The position numbers and the translations under genes are program-made. From Natrinema thermotolerans DSM 11552 (GTDB taxonomy: Archaea > Halobacteriota > Halobacteria > Halobacteriales > Natrialbaceae), in NCBI GenBank assembly GCA_000337115.1, contig AOIR01000036.1:18373-82372 (forward strand): DNA of 64,000 bases, read 5' to 3'. The notes beneath the pieces are model-generated. The model searched no databases and had not been told where the DNA came from. It saw only the letters and a program-made list of their open reading frames with translations. Shown piece after piece: positions 1-3,127 of the stretch. The stretch's first letter is position 1, and the number at the start of each line of letters is the position of its first letter.

Positions 1-23
1 TCAGAGATGTGTATAAGAGACAG
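1..23. other. Residual sequencing adapter (Nextera mosaic end)
   Basis: Positions 5-23 are exactly AGATGTGTATAAGAGACAG, the 19-bp Tn5/Nextera transposon mosaic end used in library preparation. The four bases before it are probably also adapter. The coding frame of the downstream ATPase gene runs cleanly up to position 24 and is cut here. This is an assembly artefact at a contig end, not an insertion element. Confidence 0.96.
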
Positions 24-842
24 CGCGGTCACCGTCTCGGTCCCGGTCACCGGACTCGGCGTCACGACCGCGTTCGCGTCGAACGAGTCCGCGAGCGCCT
101 CCCGCGTTAACACGCTCGAGGGCGGGCCGTCCGCCGCGACCCGCCCGTCCGCGAGCAATACGAGCCGATCGCAGTAGCGGGCGGCCAGCTCGAGGTCGTG
201 GATCGCCGCGACGACCGTCCGACCGCCCTCGACCAGCTCCCGGACCAGCTCGAGCGTCTCGACCTGATGGTTCACGTCGAGGCTCGCGGTGGGTTCGTCG
301 AGCAGCATCACCGGGGTCTCCTGGGCGATCGCCCGCGCCAGCACGACACGCTGGCGCTGGCCGCCGCTGACCTCGTCGATCGGTCGATCGGCTAACTCAG
401 CAGTCCGGGTCCGCTCGAGGGCGCGCTCGACCGCGGCGCGGTCCGCGGGCGTCGCCGACGAGAACCGCGAGCGATGCGGGTGTCGCCCCATCTCGACGAC
501 ATCCCGCACCGGGAACGAAAACGACAGCGTCGTATCCTGTGGCACGACCGAGACGAGCCGGCTCGAGGCCCGCGAGGAGAGCCCGTGAACGTCGGTCCTG
601 TCGATCGCGATCGACCCCGAATCGGGCGCGAGCGCCCCGCTGATCAGCCGCAAAAGGGTGGTCTTGCCGGCCCCGTTGGGACCGACGAAGCCGACGAACT
701 CGCCGGGCTCGATCGTCAGTGAGACGTTCTCGAGGACTGCGAGGTCGCCGAAGGAAAGCGAACAGTCCGTGATCGAGATCGACGCCGGCTCGAGATCGTC
801 GTCTCGGTCGCGGCCGGCACCGGAGTCGCGGTCGGCCGGCAT
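24..842 (-). CDS. btuD: ABC transporter ATP-binding protein, BtuD/FecE type (3' end missing)
   Basis: ATPase of a corrinoid or iron-chelate importer; it powers the permease encoded just upstream. Translation gives a Walker A motif GPNGAGKT at about residues 54-61, a Q-loop region, an ABC signature read as VSGGQRQR, Walker B VMLLDEP and an H-loop AAIHDL, so all nucleotide-binding motifs are intact. The ATG overlaps the permease stop by one base (TGATG), indicating co-transcription and translational coupling. The first ~25 residues form an acidic, low-complexity lead-in. The C-terminus runs off the contig into adapter sequence, so 273 codons are visible and the end is unknown. Substrate assignment (vitamin B12) follows haloarchaeal BtuCDF precedent and cannot be proved from sequence. 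Confidence 0.85.
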
Positions 843-1945
843 CACACCGAGTACACCTCCCTGCGCGTGAGCAGGAACAGGAAGAACGGGGCACCGAGCG
901 CCGCTGTGACGATGCCGACGGGAACCTCGGTCGGGCCGGCCGGCCACCGCGCGATCGTGTCCGTGACGACCAGAAACGACGCGCCGGCGAGCGCGCTCGT
1001 CGGGAACAGGATCCGGTGGTCCGGGCCGACGAGCAGCCGCATGATGTGGGGGACGACCAGCCCGACGAACCCGATGACGCCCGTGACGGCGACCCCCGCC
1101 GCGGTGACGACGCTCGCGAGCGCGAGTAGAACGAGTTTGGTCCGCTCGACCTCGACCCCGAGGTGGTGGGCGTCCTCCTCGCCGAGCAGGAGGACGTTCA
1201 GTTCCCGCGCGTACGTCGCCAGCACGAGCGCGCCGGCGAGCGACACCGGGAGCGCGAACGTGACGTCGTTCCAGCCCCGGTTCGCCAGGCTCCCCATCAA
1301 CCAGACGACGGCTTCCCTGAGGCCGTCGCCGCTGTGGATGAGCATGTACGAGATCATCGCGCCGAGAAAGGCCTGCACGGCGACGCCGGCGAGCAACAGC
1401 GTCGCGACCGGCGTCCGTCCGCCCTCGGTCGCGATCGCGTAGACGAGAAACGCCGTCGCGAGCGCACCGACGAACGCGGCCAGATGGAGGCTGCCGAATG
1501 GAACGAGCGCGGGAAAGGCGATGGCCGCGACCGCGCCGGCCGCACCGCCCGAGGAGACGCCGATGATCGACGGATCAGCGAGCGGGTTCCGGAAGAACCC
1601 CTGCATCACCGTCCCCGCGGCGGCGAGCGCGAACCCGACCGTCGCGGCGAGGACGATCCGCGGCAGTCGCAGTTGCACGACGATGTACTCGTGGGTCTTC
1701 TCGACGGGAAACGAGAACGCGGACGAAAACTCGAGGCCCGGAACCGGCACGGGCCATCCGAACAGGGGCAGCGTCGCGGTCCCAACTTCGATCCCGGACG
1801 GGACGGCGACGCCGTTGAGGATCGCCATCGCAACGGTCGCCGGCTCGATCCGGACCGGTCCGAGGGCGGCGCTGCCGATGACGACGGCCACGAGCAGGAC
1901 GCTCAGTCCTGCCGACCACACTGCCGTTCGGAGCCGTCGCTGCAT
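842..1945 (-). CDS. btuC: ABC transporter permease, BtuC/FecCD family
   Basis: Integral membrane permease of a vitamin B12 or iron-chelate importer. The protein is almost wholly hydrophobic with about ten predicted helices, and shows the FecCD-type hallmarks: a PRI-containing segment before a long helix (LRLPRIVLAA), the GxxxQGFFRNPLADPSIIG stretch, and the C-terminal GFVGLVVPHIMRLLVG stretch that contacts the ATPase. I chose the ATG at 1945 rather than the in-frame upstream start at 2011, because a TATA-like box at 1971-1980 lies 26 nt before it and the longer start would overlap the divergent gene. Translationally coupled to the ATPase downstream. The divergent neighbour encodes the matching binding protein. 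Confidence 0.88.
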   Translation of the reverse strand: MQRRLRTAVWSAGLSVLLVAVVIGSAALGPVRIEPATVAMAILNGVAVPSGIEVGTATLPLFGWPVPVPGLEFSSAFSFPVEKTHEYIVVQLRLPRIVLAATVGFALAAAGTVMQGFFRNPLADPSIIGVSSGGAAGAVAAIAFPALVPFGSLHLAAFVGALATAFLVYAIATEGGRTPVATLLLAGVAVQAFLGAMISYMLIHSGDGLREAVVWLMGSLANRGWNDVTFALPVSLAGALVLATYARELNVLLLGEEDAHHLGVEVERTKLVLLALASVVTAAGVAVTGVIGFVGLVVPHIMRLLVGPDHRILFPTSALAGASFLVVTDTIARWPAGPTEVPVGIVTAALGAPFFLFLLTRREVYSV

Positions 1946-1970
1946 TCGTCTCAACCTCGCTTGCAGTAGG

Positions 1971-1980
1971 CAAATATTTG
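1971..1980. promoter_or_regulatory. Palindromic TATA box shared by divergent importer genes
   Basis: The ten bases CAAATATTTG are a perfect palindrome. Its edges are 26 nt from the A of the permease ATG (1945, minus strand) and 26 nt from the A of the binding-protein ATG (2006, plus strand). This is the spacing expected for leaderless haloarchaeal transcripts in both directions, so a single TATA element appears to serve both genes. Confidence 0.7.
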
Positions 1981-2005
1981 TTGAAGTAGGGAAGAGGTAT
2001 TTCCG

Positions 2006-3127
2006 ATGCAACGACAGCTAGCCGTTATTCTGACAGTTCTCCTTACAGTTTCGGCGATCGGGCCCGCCGTGGCCGGCGCCGGAACTGGGACTGGAGCAGC
2101 CGTACAAGACGCCGAGGTACAGTGTGACTATCCGCTCACGATGACCGACGCGACCGGCGAGGACGTGACCATCGAGGACGAACCCGAGTCGGTCGTCACG
2201 CTCTATCCGGGCGACGCACAACTCGCCTACTCGATCGGTGCCGAGGACACGGTCGTCGGCATGCCCGTCGGCCAGTACACCGAGTCGCTCGAGGCCGGCG
2301 ATCGAACCGACATCACCAAAGACGACGGCGTGACGCCCGTCGCCGAGGAGATCATCAACCTGAATCCCGACGTCGTCCTCGCCGCGAACGTCGCTCTCTA
2401 CAATCAGGATCTCCTCGAGCAACTCGAGGACGCCGGGATCACGGTCGTCGTCCTCGACACCGCGAACTCGCTCGACGACGTTCGCGAGAACGTCCGCGTG
2501 ACCGGGCAGGTGACCGGCGAGTGTGACGGTGCCGAGGAGACGCTCCAGTGGATGAACGAGCGCCTCGAGATCTACGAGAACGCGCTCGAAAACGAGTCCG
2601 CACCGCTCGCGTACTACGACGGCGGCGAGAGCGGCGACACCCACGGCACGGAGACGTTCCAGCACGACGTGATGACGACGGCCGGCCTGACCAACCTGGC
2701 GGCCGAGGAGGGCCAGGTAGAATGGGGACAGATGAACTCGGAGGTCGTCGTCAACGCGAACCCCGAGTGGATCGTCTACCCCGACAGCGACCGCTGGGAT
2801 GCGCCGCCGTCGACGGCTGACCTCGATGGAGTGACCGCCATCCAGGAGGACAACATCGTCGCCGTCGACGATAACGCGATGAGCCAGCCCGGTCCCAACG
2901 TCGTCTACGCGATCGAGACGATCATCGAGAACGTCCATCCCGACGTGTACAGCGAGATCGAAGGCGACCTCGAGGCGGTCGACGAGGAGTACCGCGACGA
3001 CGGAAACGAGTCGGACGGCGGATCGGAGAGCGACGGGGATAACGAGAGCGCTATCCCCGGGTTCGGCACTGCCGCCGCACTGATCGCCCTGTTGGCCGCC
3101 GCCGGCTTCGTTGCCCGGCGACGATAG
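2006..3127 (+). CDS. btuF: PGF-CTERM-anchored ABC transporter substrate-binding protein, BtuF type
   Basis: Extracellular binding protein that delivers ligand to the divergently encoded permease. Residues 1-24 form a Sec signal peptide. The body is a helical-backbone (cluster A / TroA-like) fold, with the typical VVTLYPGDAQLAYSIGAEDTVVG opening and an INLNPDVVLAAN segment. An acidic, Asn/Ser/Glu-rich linker (about 330-348) leads to a C-terminal IPGFG motif, one hydrophobic helix and a basic RRR tail. This is the PGF-CTERM signal processed by archaeosortase A and replaced by a lipid anchor, so the protein is tethered to the cell surface rather than being a lipoprotein. Ligand could be cobalamin, heme or a siderophore; BtuF is the closest guess. 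Confidence 0.85.
   Translation: MQRQLAVILTVLLTVSAIGPAVAGAGTGTGAAVQDAEVQCDYPLTMTDATGEDVTIEDEPESVVTLYPGDAQLAYSIGAEDTVVGMPVGQYTESLEAGDRTDITKDDGVTPVAEEIINLNPDVVLAANVALYNQDLLEQLEDAGITVVVLDTANSLDDVRENVRVTGQVTGECDGAEETLQWMNERLEIYENALENESAPLAYYDGGESGDTHGTETFQHDVMTTAGLTNLAAEEGQVEWGQMNSEVVVNANPEWIVYPDSDRWDAPPSTADLDGVTAIQEDNIVAVDDNAMSQPGPNVVYAIETIIENVHPDVYSEIEGDLEAVDEEYRDDGNESDGGSESDGDNESAIPGFGTAAALIALLAAAGFVARRR

Follow-up and report, generated by a model that had tools for sequence, protein, structure and literature searches.

A conserved palindromic core as a probable shared promoter of divergent btuF and btuC-btuD genes in Halobacteriales

In the window (the whole 64-kb stretch of DNA analysed here), the genes for a BtuF-like substrate-binding protein and for the vitamin B12 importer components BtuC and BtuD diverge from a short intergenic region with a 10-bp palindrome at its midpoint. 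We propose, with a probability of about 0.78, that this palindrome is the shared core of a bidirectional BRE-TATA-BRE promoter for btuF and btuCD. The proposal is based on the spacing of the site, which is kept across the order, and on the decay of its halves where only one of the two genes is present. The genes and the core are as follows.

842..1945, minus strand: btuC, vitamin B12 ABC permease (NF007081, 576 bits; Pfam FecCD)
2006..3127, plus strand: btuF-like PGF-CTERM-anchored ABC substrate-binding protein (TIGR04281, 409 bits; Peripla_BP_2; PGF-CTERM)
1..842, minus strand: start and N-terminal part of btuD, overlapping the btuC stop and broken by an assembly join at the window edge
1971..1980: palindromic core CAAATATTTG, proposed shared TATA-type site, right half for btuF and left half for btuC

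The divergent genes and the core between them

The start codon of btuC (CAT at 1943-1945, minus strand; stop at 842-844) is supported by the match to NF007081, in which residue 1 of BtuC aligns to position 1 of the 366-position model with a score well above the cut-off of 461 bits; since this match is full-length from the first residue, the ATG at 1945 is a good start. The btuF ATG lies at 2006-2008, and its product passes TIGR04281 and has a PGF-CTERM anchor; both start codons are credible. Judged by its family matches, the plus-strand protein is related to BtuF, yet it is best named by TIGR04281. Downstream of btuC lies btuD, with overlapping stop and start. Inside btuD, window positions 1-23 (G000:C36:18373-18395) contain the Illumina Nextera mosaic end AGATGTGTATAAGAGACAG after a single N, and the assembly has 30 copies of this 19-mer, located at the starts of contigs and at internal joins. 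The close relative G026 runs collinear through the break in BtuD, which is an assembly artefact.

The sequence CAAATATTTG is a perfect 10-bp palindrome centred at 1975.5, exactly halfway between the A of the btuC start codon (1945, minus strand) and that of the btuF start codon (2006, plus strand). On both sides, 26 positions separate the start-codon A from the nearer palindrome edge, with 25 bases between. The palindrome, its centre and this symmetry had been claimed in the initial annotation, and the coordinates proved exact on recheck. The intergenic gap is 60 bp and the ATG-to-ATG distance 61 bp. Within the 64-kb window CAAATATTTG is present in a single copy, and it was found in none of 100 dinucleotide shuffles. 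To gauge the background, genes were called naively in 400 kb of a close relative: the degenerate core YAARTAYTTR occurred three times, an ATG-to-ATG spacing of 55-67 bp was found for 2 of 73 divergent pairs, and btuC/btuF alone had a central AT palindrome. The site thus has the near-palindromic AT core midway between divergent genes that characterizes an archaeal single-TATA bidirectional promoter.

The core is embedded in a larger, asymmetric arrangement, the parts of which are listed below.

1952..1983, plus strand: conserved asymmetric element CAA-N6-TTGC-NN-TAG-N-core-TTG (34-sequence alignment; match to profile R1, E 4.8e-9)
1952..1963: CAA-N6-TTG dyad, candidate regulator site, kept largely in one-way copies of either direction
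1967..1969, plus strand: TAG, candidate BRE-side contact for btuF, from its direction-specific loss
1981..1983, minus strand: TTG (CAA on the minus strand), candidate BRE-side contact for btuC, from its direction-specific loss
1961..1990, plus strand: 10-bp direct repeat TTGCAGTAGG / TTGAAGTAGG around the core, with a 20-bp period

The second copy of the direct repeat is well conserved just within the family of this genome. A mirrored likeness of the two coding starts, ATGCAgCGACgGCT and ATGCAaCGACaGCT, was considered by eye and rejected, as most orthologues have ATGCGAC at btuF and another sequence at btuC.

Conservation and spacing across Halobacteriales

Of 61 genomes from the same genus, family and order, 57 have a match to the BtuF protein. 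The block TTGCAGTAGGCAAATATTTGTTGRAGT is near-identical throughout the same family, and in the other families it persists with the looser consensus TTGCNTTAGRYAARTAYTTRTTG. Aligned with one another, 34 diverse copies share eight invariant columns and, further upstream, the CAA; a sequence profile (R1) was built from this alignment. R1 matches this genome once and found a site in 56 of the 61 relatives' genomes, nearly always as one strong site per genome. For the collection scan, btuF loci were taken with a narrower BtuF alignment (A3), A2 being too diverse; 78 of 80 named haloarchaeal btuF loci, including those of Haladaptatus, Halorussus, Halobacterium, Haloarcula, Haloferax, Halorubrum and Natronomonas, carried a site at E<=1.

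The survey of orthologous btuC/btuF intergenic regions, which the initial annotation had proposed, yielded 118 distinct two-way elements, with YAARTAYTTR as the core consensus across the order, and the symmetric spacing was kept. Measured from the core centre, the btuF start lies at 29.5-32.5 nt in 113/118 and the btuC start at 28.5-32.5 nt in 110/118, while the start-to-start distance is 59-65 in 112/118; each start codon was assigned as whichever in-frame ATG or GTG came closest to 30.5 nt, a choice that narrows these distributions slightly. The two distances to the centre are equal in 46 of the 118 elements and within 1 nt of each other in 79. By these counts, the symmetry observed in the window is the rule across the order. 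The central TA step is kept in 115/118 two-way copies. The core itself is imperfect in some of them (TACATTTTTA at L085, CACATATTTA at L198, TAAAGTTTTG at L072 and L084), and some orthologues have G or C inside the core (TAAGTACTTA). Comparison of the orthologues revealed no second conserved AT-rich block or candidate TATA in the approximately 60-bp intergenic region.

The haloarchaeal consensus core promoter consists of a TTWT TATA box and a CGAAA BRE. The window core CAAATATTTG contains neither TTWT nor CGAAA and does not conform to this consensus, and neither the TAG nor the TTG flank matches CGAAA. Many orthologues have TTTATTG, which contains TTAT.

One-way copies, the promoter model and its alternatives

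Copies of the element next to only one of the two genes served as a natural experiment. We compared the 118 two-way copies with 15 btuF-only copies, classed as such because no divergent start lies near on the other side, and with six btuC-only copies. The btuF-only set includes the paralogue in Natrialba, Natronobiforma, Salinadaptatus and Natrarchaeobius, two small genomes of one family, and others. By our count, the btuC-only copies represent about three independent origins and the btuF-only copies about six. The mean number of palindromic pairs was 4.36 of 5 in two-way copies (n=118), compared with 2.27 in btuF-only (n=15) and 3.0 in btuC-only copies (n=6); the Mann-Whitney p values against the two-way set (1e-10 and 2e-4, respectively) are descriptive, as they overstate independence given shared ancestry. 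An intact left half AAR (AAA or AAG, the leftward TATA) is found in 115/118 two-way, 4/15 btuF-only and 5/6 btuC-only copies, and an intact right half YTT (TTT or CTT) in 115/118, 9/15 and 1/6, respectively. Decay thus appears mostly on the side expected from the absent gene. Four btuF-only copies retain the left AAA or AAG, with the symmetry broken elsewhere, and the right half also deviates in 6 of the 15.

The flanks were lost in a direction-specific manner as well. The TAG left of the core is present in 113/118 two-way and 13/15 btuF-only copies, compared with 2/6 btuC-only copies (lost in four), and the TTG right of the core in 118/118 two-way, 6/6 btuC-only and 10/15 btuF-only copies. 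Such losses would be expected of BRE-side contacts, each lying upstream of one direction, and the flanks probably hold such contacts. In the CAA-N6-TTG part, the AA is kept in 15/15 btuF-only and 4/6 btuC-only copies and the TT in all; as this part is largely kept in both kinds of one-way copy, it may be a direction-independent regulator site.

Salinibaculum (L146 and L168) offers the clearest example: btuC and btuF have moved apart and each has its own copy, asymmetric in its own way, with CACATACTTG at btuF and with GAAATACTTG and CAAATACCTG at btuC. The gap between the two genes is about 140 bp and holds two copies (L146 2743-2884, L168 2795-2938). Judging from the sequences, these copies are a duplication with reciprocal decay. 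Split loci in two clades of another family show similar decay; the genome G061, for example, has TAAATATGTA at btuC and TAAACTTATG at btuF. The symmetry itself appears to be under selection, since it persists where the site serves two protein genes and, once these have parted, is lost on the side that no longer has a gene.

On the model proposed here, TBP would sit on the symmetric core and TFB would join it on one side or the other, the TAG side leading to btuF and the CAA/TTG side to btuC-btuD, and polymerase would begin a few nucleotides upstream of btuF or btuC-btuD. Transcription of btuF would depend on the right half (TAYTTR) and that of btuC on the left half (YAAR, as read from the opposite strand), and the asymmetric flanks would give each direction its own BRE-side contact. 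The CAA-N6-TTG part would probably be bound by a putative regulator tied to B12 supply. The two directions would presumably be mutually exclusive and, because one site is shared, competition may set the btuF:btuCD ratio as a physical consequence. The predicted transcript starts are as follows.

1998..2005, plus strand: predicted btuF transcript-start zone, leader of about 3-8 nt (TATA-to-start spacings in PMC8707807 and PMC6640164)
1946..1953, minus strand: predicted btuCD transcript-start zone, placed by mirroring (PMC8707807 and PMC6640164)

In halovirus HF2 the TATA box starts at -26 (PMC8707807), and in Pyrococcus furiosus the divergent starts of BRE-TATA-BRE promoters are 49-50 bp apart, as shown in vitro for PF1918 (PMC6640164). 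With 61 bp between the ATGs, the latter spacing would leave a leader of about 5-6 nt on each side; from these spacings, each ATG would be preceded by a leader of about 3-8 nt, instead of the leaderless transcripts suggested in the initial annotation. Such leaders fit the tendency of haloarchaeal transcripts to have a very short leader or none, 72% being leaderless in Hfx. volcanii.

The separate decay of the halves when their own gene is absent would also be explained by two overlapping directional TATA boxes (TATTTRTT rightward and TATTTRYC leftward), each acting as the upstream element of the other; a TATA centred on each half would lie about 28 nt from its ATG, which is nearer true leaderless geometry. 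We consider this unlikely, at odds of about one in four, as the central TA step is kept in 115/118 and the block is too short for an 8-bp TBP footprint to be shared independently. This reading differs from the shared-core model only in register. An origin of the symmetry by chance, as a coincidental midpoint in an AT-rich spacer, is practically ruled out by the order-wide survey with its 118 elements of two-sided spacing, and also by the absence of a comparable pair among the 73 naively called divergent pairs in 400 kb of the relative and of the 10-mer from all shuffles.

The palindrome might instead be mainly the operator of a dimeric regulator, probably linked to B12 or cobalt, with any TATA role secondary or located elsewhere. 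The conserved element, at about 32 bp, exceeds a bare core promoter in both length and asymmetry; it is nearly single-copy in each genome, lying by btuF/btuC and in some genomes by cbiE and cobB (cbiA); and cores such as TAAGTACTTA would be unusual TATA boxes. However, a dimer operator should stay palindromic regardless of whether it serves one gene or two, whereas the one-way copies lose their symmetry direction-specifically; the fixed distance of about 30 nt to both start codons is a need of a core promoter, and the 60-bp gap has no other candidate TATA. We therefore regard an operator as the main role of the palindrome as improbable. Taken together, the two-sided spacing and the half-specific decay give good support to the earlier suggestion of one symmetric two-way site; the description as a bare TATA palindrome does not hold, as an asymmetric, order-wide element surrounds it.

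Link to vitamin B12 and relation to known promoters

In several genomes a btuF paralogue is divergent to cbiE, which encodes cobalt-precorrin-7 methyltransferase, or to cobB, which encodes cobyrinic acid a,c-diamide synthase; this suggests a pairing of transporter and biosynthesis genes under one site. Paralogous btuF genes with the element, divergent to cbiE or cobB (cbiA), were seen at L087, L138, L142, L163 and L086; at L087 the start of the cbiE-type gene lies 31.5 nt from the centre of the AAATATTT palindrome. We tentatively suggest, at somewhat less than even odds, that the element is an order-wide B12 control site in which a putative regulator site (CAA-N6-TTGC...TAG...TTG) is fused to a two-way TATA box. 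A second activator of cobalamin genes has been proposed for Halobacterium salinarum (PMC3794607).

Several candidates for wider control were rejected. A whole-genome search for a regulon of the direct repeat (TTGNAGTAGG) gave, besides this site, a single match with three mismatches. The R1 scan of 61 genomes gave no large regulon: few sites lie outside btuF/btuC. The extras accompany btuF paralogues that are paired with cbiE or cobB or, in a single genome, stand upstream of a gene not far from a likely cobT, and the remaining weak matches look like chance. A looser scan (TTGNNNTAGNNAAATATTTNTTG, three mismatches) gave many extra matches, at about the rate of the reversed control. The TrmB motif (TACT-N7-8-GAGTA) does not resemble the element, and a cobalamin riboswitch needs a long structured 5' leader, whereas the gap here measures 60 bp and leaders of just a few nucleotides are predicted. 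At about 4461 in L249 (G057:C1:2007461), a one-way copy with core TACATTTTTA (score 44) precedes a HAD-like gene, the leader being about 60 nt longer than at other copies; a gene that is likely cobT, by eye, lies about 3 kb off. The sequence TTGTAGTAGGTAAACATCTCTTC at L094 (G028:C1:831765-831787) is found, identical or nearly so, in the same-genus genomes G011, G016, G020, G021, G022, G024 and G028, where the copies stand outside btu loci.

TATA-centred bidirectionality had been described as rare in the initial annotation, but two-way transcription from a single TATA is documented in P. furiosus and halovirus HF2 and has been claimed to be widespread in archaea. In P. furiosus (PMC6640164) one near-symmetric TATA element lies between divergent starts, and the btu site similarly has one near-symmetric, proposed TATA-type core between its two genes. 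The P. furiosus promoters have a BRE on both sides, whereas the btu flanks (TAG/TTG) are asymmetric and only candidate BREs; their second product is mostly antisense RNA, thought to be non-functional, whereas both btu products are protein genes of one transporter; and the btu spacing, unlike theirs, is conserved across the order. In HF2, a two-way TATA (T-40936/T-40979) and class II intergenic repeats have been described, with starts mapped (PMC8707807). The btu site would resemble it as a TATA working both ways in a haloarchaeal host, but the HF2 site is viral and accompanied by inverted repeats rather than a conserved chromosomal gene pair. Like the Halobacterium gvpA/gvpD operons (PMC4390858), the btu genes are haloarchaeal divergent operons run from one intergenic region; gvpA/gvpD, however, have two separate TATA-BRE units 35 bp apart, with 108 bp between starts and overlapping GvpE activator sites (PMC4390858), where btu has one AT core. 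The btu site also shares the symmetry principle of the divergent promoters of Warman et al. 2021, who, as cited in PMC12825309 and PMC10268837, found that promoter-element symmetry permits divergent transcription in bacteria and archaea.

The btu site is probably an unusually well-conserved case of the known single-TATA bidirectional promoters. According to our literature search, three things are new: the btu element, its conservation across the order next to protein-coding genes and, in split loci, its half-specific decay. Known archaeal two-way TATA promoters mostly give antisense noise, whereas this one would serve two protein genes, and what determines the direction of an archaeal promoter becomes testable with a 10-bp element and natural one-way variants. 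If the proposed B12 control is true, one protein-DNA event would set the binding protein together with the importer's membrane part and, in some lineages, cobalamin-biosynthesis genes as well, and the element offers a DNA site with which a B12-linked regulator may be sought.
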